NCBI GenBank assembly: GCA_000227525.2 | Contig: AGIG01000035.1 | Location: 1 to 63,149, forward strand | Direction of reading: 5' to 3' | Length of the DNA stretch: 63,149 nt | DNA from: a gamma proteobacterium HIMB30 | GTDB taxonomy: Bacteria; Pseudomonadota; Gammaproteobacteria; Pseudomonadales; Litorivicinaceae | Shown here: positions 14,074 to 59,761 of the stretch, in pieces | How the letters are laid out: each line of letters starts with the position of its first letter | How positions within the stretch are numbered: position 1 is the stretch's first letter | Made by a program: the position numbers and the translations under genes | Notes under the pieces: generated by a model | Seen by the model: the letters and a program-made list of their open reading frames with translations, nothing else | What the model was told of the DNA's origin: nothing | The model's database searches: none

Positions 14074-15498
14074 CTAGGAACTACAGCTGAGATAATACGG
14101 GGCGGTCTGATCGGGAGGGGTTCGCCCCAGCTCGATGGCGGCCTGACAGGGCTCATTGAGTCCTCGATGGATCGCCTGACGGATTGACTGAACCAACGAT
14201 TCATCTCCTTGTTCCGTTCGCTGAATGACTTGATCAAGTAACCAATGACTCAACATCCAGACCGGCGCTTTTTGGCGCGCTTCTGCAACACAAGATGGAT
14301 CTACCATTTCAGACCATCTCACACGAATTTGATCAAGCTGCGCTTGCCCGTCAGACGGCACAGATAGACCGCTGAACGAATCATCAAATAACGACGCAAA
14401 CAATTCCGGATAAAACATACCGGAACCCGACCAGTATTCTTTTACACTACTAACGAGTTCTGGAAGCTCCTCATGAGTCGGATCAATTGCAAGCCGGCTC
14501 GCCATTTCTACCCGGTAATACTCTCGATATTTGTCTGGAAATTCATTTAACAAAGCACGCAAAGTTTCCACGGAGACAAACGGGGTTAAGGTCTCCGCCA
14601 AACATCCTAAATTCCAATGCATGACTCGAGGCTGTTGACCATAGGCGTATCGACCATGTTGATCCGTGTGGTTAATCACATAATCATCACGATACGCCAT
14701 CAAGAAACCATAGGGCCCATAATCCAAGGTTTCACCTGACAAGGCAGTATTGTCTGTGTTCATCACACCATGAACGAACCCAACCGCCATCCATTGAGCA
14801 ACAAGCTTCGCAGAGCGATCGATGTAGCGCGCAAACACTTCTTCGAATCGACTGGATACTCCATCCAAATCTCGATCCAACTGCTGAATCGCAAAATCGA
14901 TCAATTCGCCAAGCGCTTGATGTGAGTTGTGATGATAGAAATGCTCAAAATGACCGATCCTCAAATGGTTCTTCGCAAGACGAGTCAAAGTCGCACCTCG
15001 CTCGAGGGTTTCTCTTTGAACCGGAGTGTCAGACGCAATCAATGTCAACGCGCGTGTTGTCGATAGCCCAAGTGCGTGCATATATTCAGAGCCCAAGTAC
15101 TCTCGAATTGCACTTCTGAGAACGGATCGTCCGTCACCAAACCGCGAATATGGTGTTTTTCCGGCACCTTTGAGATGCCATTCAAACCCAGCGCATTCAC
15201 CAAGGTATAGCCCTCGCCCATCGCCCAATTGGCCCGCCCATTGGCCAAATTGATGACCACTGTAAACCTGCGCAATCGGATTCCATCCATCAAGCGGAGT
15301 TCCACCGGCAAAGGCCTCGAGCGTTTTTGGACTCTTGGTATCAAGTTGGAGTCCCATTGCTTCGAGTAAATTCTCGTTGATATCGATCCATCTCGGATTC
15401 GACAGAGCCGATGGTGACACCTTCGCGTAAAAGACGTCTTCGCCGAGGGCCATAAACGGAGAAGACCAACTAAGCGGCTGTCTCGCCATGCGATCCAT
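14074..15498 (-). CDS. selO: Protein adenylyltransferase SelO (YdiU)
   Basis: The 474-residue pseudokinase-fold enzyme transfers AMP from ATP to Ser, Thr or Tyr of target proteins and is linked to redox stress. [18 protein letters not shown], the [19 protein letters not shown] stretch, [18 protein letters not shown] and the C-terminal YYLSCSS are family hallmarks; the Cys sits where eukaryotic SelO carries selenocysteine. Length matches E. coli YdiU (478). Its start lies inside rhlB, overlapping 29 bases; a second ATG three codons later is also possible. Confidence 0.93.
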
Positions 15499-43495: not shown

Positions 43496-43941
43496 TGTTC
43501 AGAGTCGTCATCGCAACTCTATTGCTGCTACCTGCGTTCTTCGTGAAAGCGAACGCTGGTTCTTCTCTTGAGGAGCCAGTGTTCTCGAGCAAAGATCCCC
43601 GAGCATGGGTGGTGATGGTCACCCAGCCCGGATGTTCTTTTTGCGTGCGCCTCGAGACTGAAATCCTTCAACCGTTACGCGCCTCAAACCTATTCAAAGA
43701 GAAGGTGCGATTTACAGCGGTTGACATTGGGGCCGCGATTCCAATGACAGATTTTGATGGAACACGAACGACGACGATCGAATTTGCAAATCGTTATCAA
43801 GGATTCGGAACCCCAACACTACTGTTTCTCAGTTCTGACGGCAAAGTACTCGCTGCGCCGAAGTTTGGCGTTCCTGATATCATCGATTTCTATGCCTACG
43901 AAATCGAAGAGACAATTCGAAGTCTCCCCGCCGTCAACTGA
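43495..43941 (+). CDS. soxW: SoxW-like periplasmic thioredoxin
   Basis: The 148-residue protein has a Sec signal (cleavage near ANA). A thioredoxin fold contains QPGCSFCVRLETEIL (CxxC) and the cis-Pro loop FGTPTLLFLSSDG. Members of this group (SoxW, thioredoxin-like SoxW) are encoded in sox clusters and are thought to reduce SoxY or other sulfur-carrier disulfides. The C-terminus overlaps the convergent HupE/UreJ-type gene by 8 bases. Symbol given by motif and context. Confidence 0.75.
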   Translation: MFRVVIATLLLLPAFFVKANAGSSLEEPVFSSKDPRAWVVMVTQPGCSFCVRLETEILQPLRASNLFKEKVRFTAVDIGAAIPMTDFDGTRTTTIEFANRYQGFGTPTLLFLSSDGKVLAAPKFGVPDIIDFYAYEIEETIRSLPAVN

Positions 43942-45091
43942 AGTGGTAATACACCACACGCTCGACCGCCCAGTAAGCACCCAGTCCTCCGATCAGTAGC
44001 GATCCTGGAATCACAACCGATCGACGATACACGTATTGATCAGTAAACCAGATCGTGATCGCGAGGTAGGCCCCAATCAGCAAGGCAACCTGACCAAATT
44101 CCACTCCCACGTTGAACCAAAGTAAAGCTGCCAAATAGAGATCTGCAGGCAATCCGAATTCAGTCAAAATCGATGCAAAACCTAGCCCATGCAGAAGCCC
44201 AAACGCAAAAATCACAGGAAGTCGGAAGCGACTCAGTCGATCACTTACCAAGTTCTCAAATGCAACATAGGCGATTGACAGAGCGATCAACGGCTCGACC
44301 ACCTGAGGCGGGAGATGAATCAACCCAAACACGCCGAGTGACAGTGTCAGCGAGTGCGCAATCGTAAACATCGTCACCTGAAGCAGTAATGGTTTGAGTC
44401 GCATCGACATCAAAAAAATACCGAGGATGAAAAGAATGTGATCAAGCCCTTTGGGCACGATATGTAGGAAGCCGGCCGACAGATATAGCGAAGACACAGA
44501 CCAAAATGTTGGCTTGCTAAACACTTGCGTCAAGGAAAACGGCTCGGTGGGCCGATCATCTTTGATCCACTGGTGACCAGACCAGTGGTACTCACCGGCC
44601 TCTTCATTCACCTGACGCACTCGTACTGCCTGATCTCCAAACCGCAGCGGGTAGTACCATCGAAGCGATATCGATTCCTTTGGGATGACACCAACCAAAT
44701 AAATCACACTGGCTCGAGGCACCTTGGTATACCCCGGTGGTGCGATTGTGATCTCGCCGATCTCGAGAGGAATCGACGCGCCATCAACAACCAGCTCGAC
44801 GCCATCCAATAACTCCCCATGAAATGCCACAAACTGCTCACGAAGATCCCCGGCCTCAAGCACTCTCAATTTATCGTATGCATCCGCATTGGGCGCTTCT
44901 TGCGTGTTTCTGTAACGACCGTTAATTCCAGTCAGTAGCGCCTCAATGCTGGTGCGAATTTCGATCGTAACCCGTGCATCAGAGAATACGCTGATTTCAA
45001 CCAAAGCAGGCTTCACAACATCCGCAGAAACTGGTAAACATAAGCTTATAACTGTGAAGAATAACGAAAGTTTTTGAAGGATCTTTTGCAA
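43934..45091 (-). CDS. HupE/UreJ-type membrane protein with extracytoplasmic domain
   Basis: The 385-residue protein has a signal peptide, an extracytoplasmic beta-rich domain (about residues 25-195) and then six or seven membrane helices. The membrane part has GFLHIVPKGLDHILFILG, FTIAHSLTLSLG and FGLLHGLGFAS, the His/Asp motifs of the HupE/UreJ family, some of which move nickel or cobalt. The substrate here is unknown; no nickel enzyme is seen nearby. The start is TTG without a good ribosome binding site, so it is uncertain. It is divergent from soxB (95 bases). Confidence 0.8.
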   Translation of the reverse strand: MQKILQKLSLFFTVISLCLPVSADVVKPALVEISVFSDARVTIEIRTSIEALLTGINGRYRNTQEAPNADAYDKLRVLEAGDLREQFVAFHGELLDGVELVVDGASIPLEIGEITIAPPGYTKVPRASVIYLVGVIPKESISLRWYYPLRFGDQAVRVRQVNEEAGEYHWSGHQWIKDDRPTEPFSLTQVFSKPTFWSVSSLYLSAGFLHIVPKGLDHILFILGIFLMSMRLKPLLLQVTMFTIAHSLTLSLGVFGLIHLPPQVVEPLIALSIAYVAFENLVSDRLSRFRLPVIFAFGLLHGLGFASILTEFGLPADLYLAALLWFNVGVEFGQVALLIGAYLAITIWFTDQYVYRRSVVIPGSLLIGGLGAYWAVERVVYYHFS

Positions 45092-45186
45092 ACGCGTTAC
45101 ACTCGGCCGACCGGGTTCGTGGAGCGGATGCTAGCACAGCATTTTTACCCTTCAAGGAATTCATTTATCAGACTGCAAGGACAAGC

Positions 45187-47097
45187 ATGAATACACTCAA
45201 TCGTCGTCAATTTATGAAGCTGATGGCGGCTGCAGCTGCAGCTGGTTCAATCCCAGCGATTTACAGCTCACGCGCGCTCGCGAGTAAGTCAGCACCCACA
45301 GGATTCTATGACAAGCCCATGGAGGGCGATGCACGGATACTCCACGTCACGGATGTTCACGGTCAGTTACTTCCCGTGTATTTCCGCGAACCCAACGTCA
45401 ATCTCGGTGTTGGTGACGCCTATGGACGTTTCCCACATATTGTTGGGCAACAATTCCTTGAGGCAAATCGCTTTGAACCTGGCTCGCCGGAAGAGTACGC
45501 CTTTACGTACTTAAATTTTGCCAAGCATGCCGAGCAATTAGGACGAACAGGCGGATTCGCTCATGTAAAAACACTTCTTGATCGCTTGCGTGATCAGGCT
45601 GGAGGATCGTCTAACACGCTGACAGTCGATGGTGGTGACTTATGGCAAGGTTCAGCGACATCGCTTTGGACTCGTGGCGTTGACATGGTTGAGGCCTCGA
45701 ATATTCTTGGGATCGACGTCATGGTTGGCCATTGGGAATTTACCTATCGTGAAGACGAAGTGCTTTCCAACGTCGCCTTATTTAAAGGTGACTTCATTGG
45801 CCAAAACGTCCGTGTGTTGGAAGATTCCTTATTTGGTGATGAATACCCTGCTCTGGTCGAGCGATTCGATGGACGTGGACTCTATGACGAGGATACTGGC
45901 CACGCGTTCCAGCCATACGTCATCAAAGAAGTGAACGGCGCACGAATTGCTGTGGTTGGGCAGGCTTTCCCAAGAACTGCCAACGCGAATCCGAAAGAAT
46001 TTTTCCCAGACTGGTCATTCGGTCTACGAGAAGACGATATGGCCGAACTCGTTGAGCAAATCCGAGGTGATGAATCTCCTGATGCAGTGGTCTTGGTCTC
46101 ACACAACGGGATGGATGTTGATATTAAGATGGCTGAGCGTGTACCAGGTCTCAACGCAGTATTTGGCGGCCATACGCACGACGGATGTCCATTACCGGTC
46201 AAAGTGAAGAATCCGGCTGGACATGACTGCTGGGTTACCAACGCCGGATCGAACGGGAAATTTGTCGGTTGTATGGACTTTAAATTTGGTGACGGACAAC
46301 TCGAAGGCTTGTCTTATCAAATGTTCCCAGTGATCAGTGATTGGCTTGATGCGGATAAAGAAATGGAATCCTTTATTACCCAAATGCGTCAAACAAAGTA
46401 CTCAGACAAAATTATTCAAAGCCGTCGCAAAGATGCGTTCTTCACACCTCAATGGGTCGGCAAGACTTACGATGAAATTTTGACCGAGAAACTCGCAAAG
46501 GCTGATCGTCTTTTGTATCGCCGTGGGAATTTCATGGGCACCTGGGATCAGGTCATCTGTAACGCTTTGCGTTGGGAATATGATGCCGACGTCGCCATGT
46601 CCGCCGGTGTTCGCTGGGGTACAACCACGTTGGAGGGCGACTGGATCACAATGGACGATGTGATGAGTCAGGTCGCGACCACCTATTCGGAAACCTATGT
46701 TTCTGAGATGACCGGCGAGCAGTTACTGTCCACCCTCGAAGCGGTCGCTGATAATCTCTTCGATCCTGATCCGTATCTACAATCAGGTGGCGATATGGTT
46801 CGTATCGGTGGTATGGATTACACCATTGCACCCAAGAAAGGTCTTGGTGAGCGAATCACCGATGCCCGTTTAGATAATGGCGACGCCATTGATCCCGCGA
46901 AGACATACAAAGTGACTGGCTGGGCGACGGTCAATAACACCCCTGATGGACGCCTGATCTGGGATATTATCCGTGACTACATCAAAGCCAATAAAGATGC
47001 TGATGACGTATTGAGGCTTGCGAAGATTAATCATCCGAAGGTGATCGGTATGAACGAGAATCCGGGGATGGCTGACTACCCGGGCGAATCTGGCTAA
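45187..47097 (+). CDS. soxB: Thiosulfohydrolase SoxB
   Basis: The 636-residue periplasmic enzyme hydrolyses the sulfate group from SoxY-bound cysteine-S-thiosulfonate. A twin-arginine signal (NRRQFMKLMAAAAAAG) exports it folded with its metals. The dimetal site motifs of the 5'-nucleotidase-like fold are visible: VTDVHGQLLPVY, DGGDLWQGSATSLWTRG, VGHWEFTYR, VLVSHNGMDVD and FGGHTHDGCP. The C-terminal substrate-binding domain contains ADVAMSAGVRWGTT. It has its own downstream terminator and converges on soxCDXYZAK. Confidence 0.96.
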   Translation: MNTLNRRQFMKLMAAAAAAGSIPAIYSSRALASKSAPTGFYDKPMEGDARILHVTDVHGQLLPVYFREPNVNLGVGDAYGRFPHIVGQQFLEANRFEPGSPEEYAFTYLNFAKHAEQLGRTGGFAHVKTLLDRLRDQAGGSSNTLTVDGGDLWQGSATSLWTRGVDMVEASNILGIDVMVGHWEFTYREDEVLSNVALFKGDFIGQNVRVLEDSLFGDEYPALVERFDGRGLYDEDTGHAFQPYVIKEVNGARIAVVGQAFPRTANANPKEFFPDWSFGLREDDMAELVEQIRGDESPDAVVLVSHNGMDVDIKMAERVPGLNAVFGGHTHDGCPLPVKVKNPAGHDCWVTNAGSNGKFVGCMDFKFGDGQLEGLSYQMFPVISDWLDADKEMESFITQMRQTKYSDKIIQSRRKDAFFTPQWVGKTYDEILTEKLAKADRLLYRRGNFMGTWDQVICNALRWEYDADVAMSAGVRWGTTTLEGDWITMDDVMSQVATTYSETYVSEMTGEQLLSTLEAVADNLFDPDPYLQSGGDMVRIGGMDYTIAPKKGLGERITDARLDNGDAIDPAKTYKVTGWATVNNTPDGRLIWDIIRDYIKANKDADDVLRLAKINHPKVIGMNENPGMADYPGESG

Positions 47098-49205: not shown

Positions 49206-49541
49206 CTACAGTGTGTAAAGATAATCTACAACGAGGTTGATTTCTTGCTCAGTCAAAATCTTATTTCGACCAAAAGGCGGCATCGCCGTCATAGGGTTCC
49301 GCTTCGTGGGGTCCTTGATGTACTCGACCAAGGCTTTCCGTTCAGGGAACCGGGCTTTCATGGCCACCATTGGTGGCCCGACGTTACCCGTCTGCTGACC
49401 ACCTTCAAACATGTGGCAGGTCAAACAATTCCCTTTTTTTCGATCCCAGGCGATTTGCTTACCCTTTTCAATCGTGTCTGCCGACGCGACCGGTGTAAGC
49501 AGTGATGCAGCCAATATAGCTGTCAGGAGTTGCCCTTTCAT
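49206..49541 (-). CDS. soxX: SoxX, monoheme cytochrome c
   Basis: The 111-residue precursor has a Sec signal (cleavage near ASA). The heme site is C39-L-T-C42-H43 in NCLTCHMFEGG, followed by GNVGPPM; the distal ligand is probably the Met in TAMPPFG. It pairs with SoxA. GAGGAAACAATA precedes the ATG. A 118-base gap to soxD contains half of the tandem duplication. Confidence 0.94.
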   Translation of the reverse strand: MKGQLLTAILAASLLTPVASADTIEKGKQIAWDRKKGNCLTCHMFEGGQQTGNVGPPMVAMKARFPERKALVEYIKDPTKRNPMTAMPPFGRNKILTEQEINLVVDYLYTL

Positions 49542-49611
49542 TATTGTTTCCTCTCCTCTTGAGTTTTAAACCGAGCCTACTGGCTCGATTCAACCATAAA
49601 CGCAACCGCGT

Positions 49612-49724
49612 TACTTACTTCTTCATCCGAAAGCGACATATTGCCACCTTTTGCAGGCATTACGCCATACTTACTTCTTCATCCGAAAGCGACATATTGC
49701 CACCTTTTGCAGGCATTACGCCAT
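49612..49724. repeat. Exact 56-bp tandem duplication at the soxD 3' end
   Basis: Bases 49612-49668 and 49668-49724 are identical with a period of 56 bases (two copies, no mismatch over 57 positions). The period is not a multiple of three. Copy 2 is read first by soxD and copy 1 holds what would be the original end of the gene. Confidence 0.97.
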
Positions 49725-50589
49725 TAGGACCTTGGTAGCCATTGATCGCATTGCTTGACATGCTGGCCATCCCCGTCTGAATCCGATCAACCCAGGCCGA
49801 CGCGTCGCCAACTTTCGGTGCGCCGGCAACACCCATTCCGTGGCACGCCTGGCACGCTTTGTCGTAGACCGACTTGCCCGCCGTTGCTGCGTCGGACATC
49901 GCGACCTCAACAGCTTTCACGGCCGGTTCCGAATCGCCATAGTGGTTCGCTGCAACACCAGAATCCTCTTTGAAGTGACCGGTTGGGGTCACGCCGTTGA
50001 TCGTTGTCACGATCGTGAAGTTTGCTGGATCCGCGCAGTTTTCCATGCAACGCGTGTTTTGCACGTCAGGCCGGTTGTCGATGTAGAAATTCGGCTCGTT
50101 TGGCATCTTGACTGCCGCAAAAGACTCTCGATCCGCCACAAAATCATCATCAACGATATCGTTGAGATACAAAACATATGCTGAAATCGCATAGGTTTCA
50201 TCGTCAGTCAGAGACTGCGGCGCAGGGTATGGCATCGCTCTGTGGATGTAGTCCCAAAGCGTAGATGCATACGGCCAATAAGAACCGACGGTTTTTTCTG
50301 GGTGCAACGTATCAAGAGTACCCTCACCACCCGCGAGAATCGGCCAGCGCCCCTCGCCCTCACCAAACAAACCATGACAACTTGCGCACTTCGCCTCATA
50401 CAATGGCTCACCCTCGGCGACAGATCCTCGACCTGGAGGGAGTCCCATCCCATCGGGACGAATATCGATGTCCCAGCCCGCAATCATTTCAGGTGTGGCA
50501 GTCGATCCAATTCCAAGAGGACCTGCTTGAACTGCACCAGCCAAAACGATGGCTGCCGCAGCTACTGCAAGATTAGGTAATTTGAACAT
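49660..50589 (-). CDS. soxD: SoxD, diheme cytochrome c of sulfane dehydrogenase (C-terminus altered by duplication)
   Basis: The 309-residue precursor has a Sec signal (cleavage near VQA). Heme sites are C68-A-S-C71-H72 and C246-Q-A-C249-H250. SoxD carries electrons from the SoxC molybdenum centre. The frame is read from the ATG at 50589 (GGGGAAG upstream), overlapping soxC by 17 bases; a longer open frame upstream is rejected. After DEEVS the tandem duplication shifts the frame and the protein ends in Met-Ala. In the unshifted copy the frame continues as NAVAFMVESSQ then TAG, a normal terminal helix of class I cytochromes. Both heme motifs and the second-domain Met region (NGVMPAKGG) are kept, so the product may still fold. 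Confidence 0.9.
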   Translation of the reverse strand: MFKLPNLAVAAAAIVLAGAVQAGPLGIGSTATPEMIAGWDIDIRPDGMGLPPGRGSVAEGEPLYEAKCASCHGLFGEGEGRWPILAGGEGTLDTLHPEKTVGSYWPYASTLWDYIHRAMPYPAPQSLTDDETYAISAYVLYLNDIVDDDFVADRESFAAVKMPNEPNFYIDNRPDVQNTRCMENCADPANFTIVTTINGVTPTGHFKEDSGVAANHYGDSEPAVKAVEVAMSDAATAGKSVYDKACQACHGMGVAGAPKVGDASAWVDRIQTGMASMSSNAINGYQGPNGVMPAKGGNMSLSDEEVSMA

Positions 50590-51889
50590 TGAATACTTCC
50601 CCGCTTTCCGTAACGTTCCATGTGTGGATTGAGTTCTTGTGATAGATCGACCAACCACCACGCTCATCACGCAGCTGTTTCAAAGTCGGTTGCACGTATC
50701 CCGTTTCATCAATTGCACGCGACTGCAACAACCAAGGCTCGCCATTCCATTGTGTCTTCAAGGAGAACTGCGTAAGAGCCTTTGGTATCACCAATTCACC
50801 AAGCTCTGTACGCTGCCAATTGACGCCGCCATCCAATGACACATCAACCGCCTTAATCTTTCCGCGACCAGACCAAGCAAGTCCTCGGATTTCAACAAAC
50901 CCACGTTGCATCAGTGGCTTCTCTGGGCAAGGAGATGTGACCACTGAGTTACATTCCTGCTCATAAGTGAAGCGACGCGAACGACCGTCTGGCATCAAGT
51001 CCGTGTACTTGGATGTTTCCTCACGGTGGTGCCATGGCTGATCGCCAATTTCAAGGCGACGCAACCACTTCACAGAGGTATTACCCTCCCAACCCGGATT
51101 GAGCATCCGTAATGGGTAACCCTGCTCTGGACGTAACGCCTCACCGTTCTGACCCCACGCAATGATGGTGTCATCGAGTGCTTTCTCTAACGGAATCGAA
51201 CGCGACATTCCTGCTGCGTCAGCGCCCTCAGCCAAGATCCACTTACCTTCTGGCTTGACACCAACTTCCTCGAGAAGCGTCGACAGCTTCACTCCGGTCC
51301 ACTCACAGCACGACAGCATCCCGTGTGTGAACTGTAACGCTTCCATCTGAGCACCACGCCACTCCATACCACCGTTAGCAGGGCACTCAATGAAGCGAAT
51401 TTGTGATACCGAAGGGAAACGACGCAGGTCATCCATTGTCAGAACCAATGGACGCTCAACCAAACCATGAATGATCAAACGATGTTGGTCCGGATTCACG
51501 TTCGGAATACCACCGTGATAGCGCTCGAAGACCACTCCACTCGGAGTAATGATTCCTTCGAGATCCTGTAGTGGTGTCATCGAGATCGACGAAGCCGCGT
51601 CAGCTGTCAACCAAGGCACTGTGCGCCGCTGGAGGTCTTCGAATTCAGACGGATCACCGTAAGGCTTGGCAACAACACCACGACCCAAGTAGCTCTGCCA
51701 TTCCGGAAGATTTGGTGGAAGATTTGCAGATGCGTTGGCTTTCGGGATCATTTGTACGCTCGAAAGTCCGGCTACTGCCGCGATTCCGCCCTTGAGAAAA
51801 TTACGGCGGTCCATGCCTCTCATACCCTTCGCTTCGGTCGCAATTGCTTCCATCAGCTTTGGTAGAGACGGTTCATACAGCTTCGTCAT
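50573..51889 (-). CDS. soxC: SoxC, molybdenum sulfane dehydrogenase
   Basis: The 438-residue precursor has a Tat signal (DRRNFLKGGIAAVAG), needed because molybdopterin is bound before export. The sulfite-oxidase fold shows RLIIHGLVERPLVLTMDDL and the molybdenum-ligand Cys in RFIECPANGG, then GVKLSTLLEEVG, GYPLRMLNPGWEGNTSVKWL and a C-terminal dimerisation domain (SGRGKIKAVDVSLDGG). It oxidises the sulfane sulfur left on SoxY, six electrons, passed to SoxD. The ATG at 51889 has GGAAGGG 4-5 bases upstream; the longer frame (to 51958) would include the promoter. The nearby moa/moe genes supply its cofactor. Confidence 0.95.
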   Translation of the reverse strand: MTKLYEPSLPKLMEAIATEAKGMRGMDRRNFLKGGIAAVAGLSSVQMIPKANASANLPPNLPEWQSYLGRGVVAKPYGDPSEFEDLQRRTVPWLTADAASSISMTPLQDLEGIITPSGVVFERYHGGIPNVNPDQHRLIIHGLVERPLVLTMDDLRRFPSVSQIRFIECPANGGMEWRGAQMEALQFTHGMLSCCEWTGVKLSTLLEEVGVKPEGKWILAEGADAAGMSRSIPLEKALDDTIIAWGQNGEALRPEQGYPLRMLNPGWEGNTSVKWLRRLEIGDQPWHHREETSKYTDLMPDGRSRRFTYEQECNSVVTSPCPEKPLMQRGFVEIRGLAWSGRGKIKAVDVSLDGGVNWQRTELGELVIPKALTQFSLKTQWNGEPWLLQSRAIDETGYVQPTLKQLRDERGGWSIYHKNSIHTWNVTESGEVFNVQIT

Positions 51890-51929
51890 ATTACCCTTCC
51901 AAAGAGTTCTATCGTTATTACGAAAAAGA

Positions 51930-51958
51930 ATATTAAAAAAATTTGCGCTCAGTGCCAA
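51930..51958 (-). promoter_or_regulatory. Likely promoter of soxCDXYZAK
   Basis: On the minus strand TTGGCA (51958-51953) and TAATAT (51935-51930) are spaced by 17 bases. Transcription would start near 51922, about 33 bases before the soxC ATG. No SoxR-type operator was identified. Confidence 0.5.
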
Positions 51959-58948: not shown

Positions 58949-59761
58949 TTAATCCTCATCCTCATCCTCATCCTCATCCTCATCCTCATCCTCATCCTCA
59001 TCGTCGAACGGATCGTTGCCTAAAACCAAGTGTGAATACCACAAGTCAAACAGGTCGACGTCACTGGGATCAACAGAGTCCTCACCATCATGGAAAAATA
59101 ACTCACATTCATCGTATTCATCATTGATAGTGCACACAGAGCTATCCACTCCATCTTCGATAAATCGAGTTAGTCGCAACCTGATCCAATAGCCGTCCTC
59201 GACTGGTCCAGTCTCCCCGAATCTGAAGAGTTTTTCTTCGATAACAGCATCCTCAGATGGCTCAAAATTTATTTTTTGATCTACGCATGATATCTCGTAG
59301 ATTTCAGCCGGACATCGCACCTGCCAGATTTGTGTGCGGGGTAAATAGTCTGCCAACCAGTCCGTGAAATGCTCAAGTTGCGACGGGTCGTCTCCGGCTT
59401 CGTAATTCTTAACCTGCAGTTTATTCAGCTCGTAACTCTCGTCGAATTGGATTGCCGACCCTGCAGATTGCAATTCATTGAGTCCTGAATACCTTACCCT
59501 TAACTCTTCATAGTCTAATTCAGGGTCATGGAGCTCGCTAAATCTCTGATTAATCAACTCAGGGACAATATGATCGCCCGAGTCATAAGTATCGCCTGAG
59601 ATTTCAAAAATTCCGGTCACCGGGAAAAATCTAAAAATCTCGACTGAAGTGAATCCTCCGTCGATAGGGTCAGCTTGATCGACAAAAAAACCACGATACT
59701 CCTCCCAAATATGACTGATTTCCCGGCAAGGATAATTTTTTAAAATATCGATCAGTTGCAT
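58949..59761 (-). CDS. Acidic protein with a Glu-Asp repeat tail (element cargo)
   Basis: The 270-residue protein is acidic throughout and ends in an alternating Asp-Glu tail of about 18 residues after NDPFD. The tail is encoded by eight perfect GAG-GAT units. The body is soluble, with many aromatic strands and no recognised motif. Its ATG overlaps the end of the 139-residue gene by 10 bases, with GGAG 8 bases upstream. Hexanucleotide copy number could vary between strains without changing frame. Confidence 0.65.
   Translation of the reverse strand: MQLIDILKNYPCREISHIWEEYRGFFVDQADPIDGGFTSVEIFRFFPVTGIFEISGDTYDSGDHIVPELINQRFSELHDPELDYEELRVRYSGLNELQSAGSAIQFDESYELNKLQVKNYEAGDDPSQLEHFTDWLADYLPRTQIWQVRCPAEIYEISCVDQKINFEPSEDAVIEEKLFRFGETGPVEDGYWIRLRLTRFIEDGVDSSVCTINDEYDECELFFHDGEDSVDPSDVDLFDLWYSHLVLGNDPFDDEDEDEDEDEDEDEDED
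58952..58999 (-). repeat. Eight perfect hexanucleotide repeats encoding Glu-Asp
   Basis: ATCCTC on the plus strand (GAGGAT on the coding strand) is repeated eight times without error and sits directly before the stop codon. Unit length keeps the frame, so slippage would change tail length only. Confidence 0.97.

Follow-up and report, generated by a model that had tools for sequence, protein, structure and literature searches.

The soxD gene of the gamma proteobacterium HIMB30, as assembled, carries an exact 56-bp tandem duplication that shifts its reading frame, so that SoxD would stop within the final helix of its second cytochrome c domain. We put at about even the chance that the cause is a single and very recent duplication, private to this strain and present in the sequenced culture. 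If the duplication is real, the predictions of sulfur oxidation made with this draft depend on a damaged soxD, and the strain provides a natural test of the need for the second heme domain of SoxD. If it is an artefact, one gene is to be corrected, and perhaps a second locus too.

LSUCC0096 belongs to the same genus as the genome analysed here, which corresponds to the OM252 clade, also named 'Ca. Halomarinus' and placed by GTDB in the family Litoricolaceae. In a paper on OM252 (PMC8269220), LSUCC0096 and HIMB30 are given as pure cultures, with a HIMB30 genome of about 2.17 Mbp, and soxABCDXYZ is placed in both subclades, one species cluster excepted. The same paper reports thiosulfate-driven growth for LSUCC0096 and presents the functions of HIMB30 as predicted, without experimental proof. 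The assembly used here comprises 36 contigs (2,168,870 bp, 98.55% complete); the window, by which we mean the whole stretch of DNA analysed, is one entire contig of 63,149 bp. A literature search for soxD together with frameshift gave no title on bacterial soxD among the matches listed.

The duplication and the soxD reading frame

An exact 56-bp tandem duplication at the 3′ end of soxD was the central claim of the original prediction, and two methods confirm it. Tandem Repeats Finder reports positions 49612-49724 with a period of 56, 2.0 copies, 100% matches and 0 indels, and a script comparison finds the two 56-bp copies (Table 1) to be identical. The matching run amounts to 57 bases, with position 49724 also matching; this base beyond the two copies is a chance match. 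The junction homology of the duplication is 1 bp, and the strand folding of the 56-bp unit is nothing unusual (z -0.62; equalled or surpassed by 48 of 200 shuffles). The nearer end of the contig is some 13.4 kb away from the duplication. No 20-mer is repeated elsewhere on the direct strand of the window, with the exception of an ATCCTC array at 58952. This array (58952-59002) is made of 8.5 copies of a 6-bp unit with 100% matches, and it would not alter a frame because its unit is a multiple of three.

Table 1. Positions of soxC, soxD and soxX in the window, with the two copies of the 56-bp unit and the displaced end of soxD
Feature	Position	Strand	Remarks
soxC, sulfite/sulfane dehydrogenase molybdopterin subunit	50573..51958	-	TIGR04555, 639 bits vs cut-off 420; unsplit
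soxD as given	49660..50589	-	ATG at 50589, TAA stop 49660-49662; 309 residues
Upstream copy (soxD sense) of the 56-bp unit	49668..49723	-	in soxD frame reads GVMPAKGGNMSLSDEEVS
Downstream copy (soxD sense) of the 56-bp unit	49612..49667	-	out of soxD frame; leads into conserved end NAVAFMVESSQ
Remnant of the normal 3′ end of soxD, out of frame	49577..49611	-	rest of NAVAFMVESSQ and TAG stop; matches SoxD ends of three relatives, in the other frame
soxX, next gene downstream of soxD	49206..49541	-	TIGR04485 above cut-off; unsplit vs 2/3 relatives

Translation with and without one copy also bears out the claimed frameshift and the Met-Ala end after DEEVS. As given, SoxD ends in MSLSDEEVSMA followed by the stop; when one 56-bp copy is removed, the frame reads DEEVSNAVAFMVESSQ and reaches a TAG stop at 49577-49579. 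The frameshift costs SoxD 11 residues (NAVAFMVESSQ), as had been stated, and adds two (Met-Ala). These residues had been placed near the second heme domain, whereas they belong to the domain itself, as its last helix. Two ways of rescuing the protein were also weighed, -1 frameshifting and reinitiation at the TAATG where the early stop overlaps a start codon. Neither is proposed; reinitiation was set aside because its product would be a peptide of only 27 residues that lacks a signal sequence.

The gene is named soxD for its position beside soxC and its match to the solved structure 2xts_B, which PMC5061964 names as Paracoccus pantotrophus SoxD. No NCBIfam model reached its cut-off on the protein. 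In Pfam it has two cytochrome c type stretches, with CASCH at residues 68-72 and CQACH at residues 246-250. The gene thus adjoins soxC within the sox cluster and encodes two CxxCH cytochrome c domains, as a soxD should, and what the window protein does not have is the complete second domain with its terminal helix found in relatives. Downstream, soxX, soxY, soxZ and soxA each score above their own NCBIfam cut-off.

The integrity of the cluster was assessed by comparing the ORFs from the sox loci of three relatives (L061, L064 and L068) with the window. At the duplication, SoxD from each of the three finds its match in two different frames. SoxC, SoxY and SoxZ of the three relatives each match in one piece, soxC through a single collinear 438-residue match from each of them, and SoxX and SoxA do so for two of the three, with no match from L068. 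Among the sox genes compared, soxD is the only one that is split.

Outside the sox genes, the same comparison brought up an L061 ORF whose match to the window is broken into two pieces with a frame offset of one base (45243-45127 and 45109-44801). This match (44801-45243) lies upstream of a minus-strand gene at 43934-45091 and spans the start, at 45187, of a divergent gene on the opposite strand.

The end of SoxD in relatives and the second heme domain

The contig scan gave 173 relatives, the best 80 of which were kept; each is of another species than HIMB30, and 19 belong to the same family. Among the 56 other genomes, a nearly full-length SoxD match was found in 16 of the 21 of the same genus and in all three others of the family. 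In each of these 19 family members the unit is single-copy and SoxD finishes normally, in NAVAYMVESSR or a closely similar sequence. The full C-terminal helix is present in each of the best 80 relatives of the 173, where 26-32 residues separate the Met of the MPxKGG motif from the stop, versus 18 (from Met292) in the window SoxD. Neither the two-copy state nor the Met-Ala end occurs in any of these 80. The original prediction had called for this comparison of C-termini, and by its result the duplication is not ancestral. Furthermore, the loss of the helix looks selected against, since none of the 80, 19 of them of the same family, is truncated.

The identity of the missing residues is documented by a solved structure. 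The heme-2 domain of relative L061 aligns with the cytochrome c-555 4j20_A over residues 8-90 of 91 (E 2.2e-28), and NAVAYMV terminates both partners of the alignment. As the match ends in this motif, the residues missing from SoxD are part of a cytochrome c terminal helix; the earlier reading of NAVAFMVESSQ as a normal terminal helix agrees both with this alignment and with the ends of the relatives. The best solved relative of the whole SoxD is 2xts_B (205 residues), and its match is confined to profile positions 24-192, that is, to the heme-1 domain.

We would expect the heme-2 domain of the shortened protein to be destabilised or lost, with SoxC and the heme-1 domain of SoxD remaining whole. 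SoxCD would then be impaired, or would function like the heme-2-less SoxCD1 form. The modulation of SoxCD put forward in the original prediction is conjecture. The paper on the 2xts structure is said to have found a SoxCD form lacking heme 2 as active as the full one. Because the heme-1 domain is intact and 2xts_B matches this domain only, the effect is perhaps mild: the truncation may disturb the heme-2 domain and yet spare catalysis. Structure prediction was also tried, with a mean pLDDT of 32.8 for the window SoxD and 51.3 for L061; these AlphaFold models are too poor to be given any weight. In these low-quality models the last helix is longer in L061 (303-316) than in the window SoxD (303-308).

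A second duplication in the draft and the origin of the first

We scanned 911,873 readable bases of this draft, which represent 42% of the genome and include the window. Apart from the soxD case, they contain one isolated and exact two-copy duplication whose unit reaches 25 bp: the unit measures 34 bp, and the duplication is located at 14278-14345 of locus L169 (contig C21, 54306-54373). Its unit ends in ATGAAAACG, where a gene probably begins whose product has Fer2_3 and 4Fe-4S dicluster domains and, judged by these domains, would be of the succinate dehydrogenase/fumarate reductase iron-sulfur type. The 34-bp duplication covers the leader and the likely first codons of this gene. Its junction homology is 0 bp and its length, like 56, is not a multiple of three. 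Of the 21 further genomes in the genus, two have this locus, and in both the unit is single-copy. The units of 18 and 24 bp found elsewhere (L146, L148 and L177), and the longer periods in L177, are multiples of three. Contig C29 (L177, 1-840) opens with short repeats whose periods are multiples of three, which may explain the contig end at this point.

As controls, 399,996 bases of two genomes of the same genus (199,996 and 200,000) and 768,628 bases around soxD in the best 80 of the 173 relatives were searched, and neither set contained an exact tandem unit of at least 25 bp. Shorter exact tandem units, of 12, 13 and 17 bp, occur in the soxD loci of three of these 80 relatives, and two of them have non-triplet units: 17 bp, twice, in L066 and 13 bp in L079. 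As no exact unit of at least 25 bp occurs in the control sequence, the 56-bp copy is not a chance match. The rate gap (2 vs 0) is small and not significant, and is too little for proof.

These numbers bear on the reading that competes most directly with a mutation in the cell, namely an assembly artefact. Pieces sharing a 56-bp end would have been joined head to tail with their overlap left unmerged, or gap filling would have doubled the stretch, and the real SoxD would be normal. We regard this as quite possible, at a little below an even chance. The single copy and intact end in all of the best 80 of the 173 relatives are in line with it, as are the two isolated exact duplications in the draft as opposed to none in the controls, despite the weakness of that contrast. 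A junction homology of 1 bp in one case and 0 bp in the other is also what an unmerged overlap is expected to leave; an unmerged overlap or template switching fits these values better than classical slippage does. However, the lengths 56 and 34 differ, so no constant k underlies both. Moreover, among the 28 of 72 contig ends compared (17 small contigs were left out), no exact overlap of at least 12 bp was detected, nor any common 25-mer within 500 bp of these ends; a k-mer overlap of 56 has thus left no trace in them.

The recent, strain-private duplication is the explanation that we favour. It is supported by the absence of the two-copy state from the 80 relatives, by the unsplit condition of the other sox genes compared, by the distance of the duplication from the contig ends, by the lack of overlaps among the contig ends compared (28 of 72) and by the restriction of the 2xts_B match to the heme-1 domain. 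The second exact non-triplet private duplication of the draft, of 34 bp, is a counterpoint, as it could signal a recurring assembly error; both duplications may be recent mutations, or both may stem from one type of assembly error. The apparent selection against loss of the helix also speaks against this explanation. We infer that the 56-bp duplication would be present in the cell, beyond the assembly alone, and that replication slippage or template switching would have produced it at a junction of minimal homology. Its very recent date is indicated by the copies, which are undiverged, and by the out-of-frame remnant, which is undecayed. Events of this kind are ordinary. Direct repeats of 56 bp can revert to a single copy, and the mutation would thus be reversible by accident and not by an evolved mechanism.

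A reversible slippage switch had been suggested. If it were maintained, frequent gain and loss would keep both forms always in the population and turn the heme-2 domain off and on. This is unsupported, and we hold it to be very improbable. In its favour, a unit of 56 bp is not divisible by three, and the frame would shift whenever a copy is gained or lost, while the remnant still codes for the normal end; reversible tandem duplications inside genes occur elsewhere, as in pneumococcal capsule genes. Against this, none of the best 80 of the 173 relatives, all of other species, has two copies, the fold of the unit is unremarkable and its ends have 1 bp in common. Furthermore, one long unit is present twice, with no array of short repeats. 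We consider it equally far-fetched that the duplication is a live reversible state toggling SoxCD between one form with two hemes and another with heme 1 only, so that one 56-bp unit would tune thiosulfate oxidation.

Least probable of all is an older and tolerated shortening, by which the strain would dispense with the heme-2 domain and the truncated form would be fixed: it could appeal to the restriction of the 2xts_B match to the heme-1 domain and to the reported activity of such a form, but the copies show zero divergence, the remnant keeps the conserved end undecayed and none of the best 80 of the 173 relatives is shortened.

Comparison with known systems

Reversible tandem duplications inside genes are known, for example in cap3A of the Streptococcus pneumoniae capsule. 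The soxD case resembles cap3A in that an exact tandem copy within an ORF changes the frame, as in phase-variable duplications. It differs in that the two-copy state of the window soxD is known from one assembly and occurs in no relative examined. Simple-sequence contingency arrays consist of many short units, of about 1-10 bases, and soxD has a single 56-bp unit, twice.

The duplications that arise from unmerged overlaps in draft assemblies are likewise head-to-tail exact copies of some tens of bases with minimal junction homology, and the 34-bp duplication is a second case in this draft. Here, however, the lengths are not constant, and no overlaps are found among the 28 of 72 contig ends.

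On the side of the protein, the window SoxD is like the Paracoccus pantotrophus SoxD (PDB 2XTS) in that its gene adjoins soxC, it has two CxxCH motifs and its heme-1 domain is homologous to 2xts_B, but the frameshift cuts its heme-2 domain short in the last helix. With the SoxCD1 form of Paracoccus, which lacks heme 2, it shares a whole heme-1 domain next to a heme-2 domain that would be lost or damaged. In the window, however, a frameshift would be the cause, and most of the heme-2 domain, its heme motif included, is still encoded.
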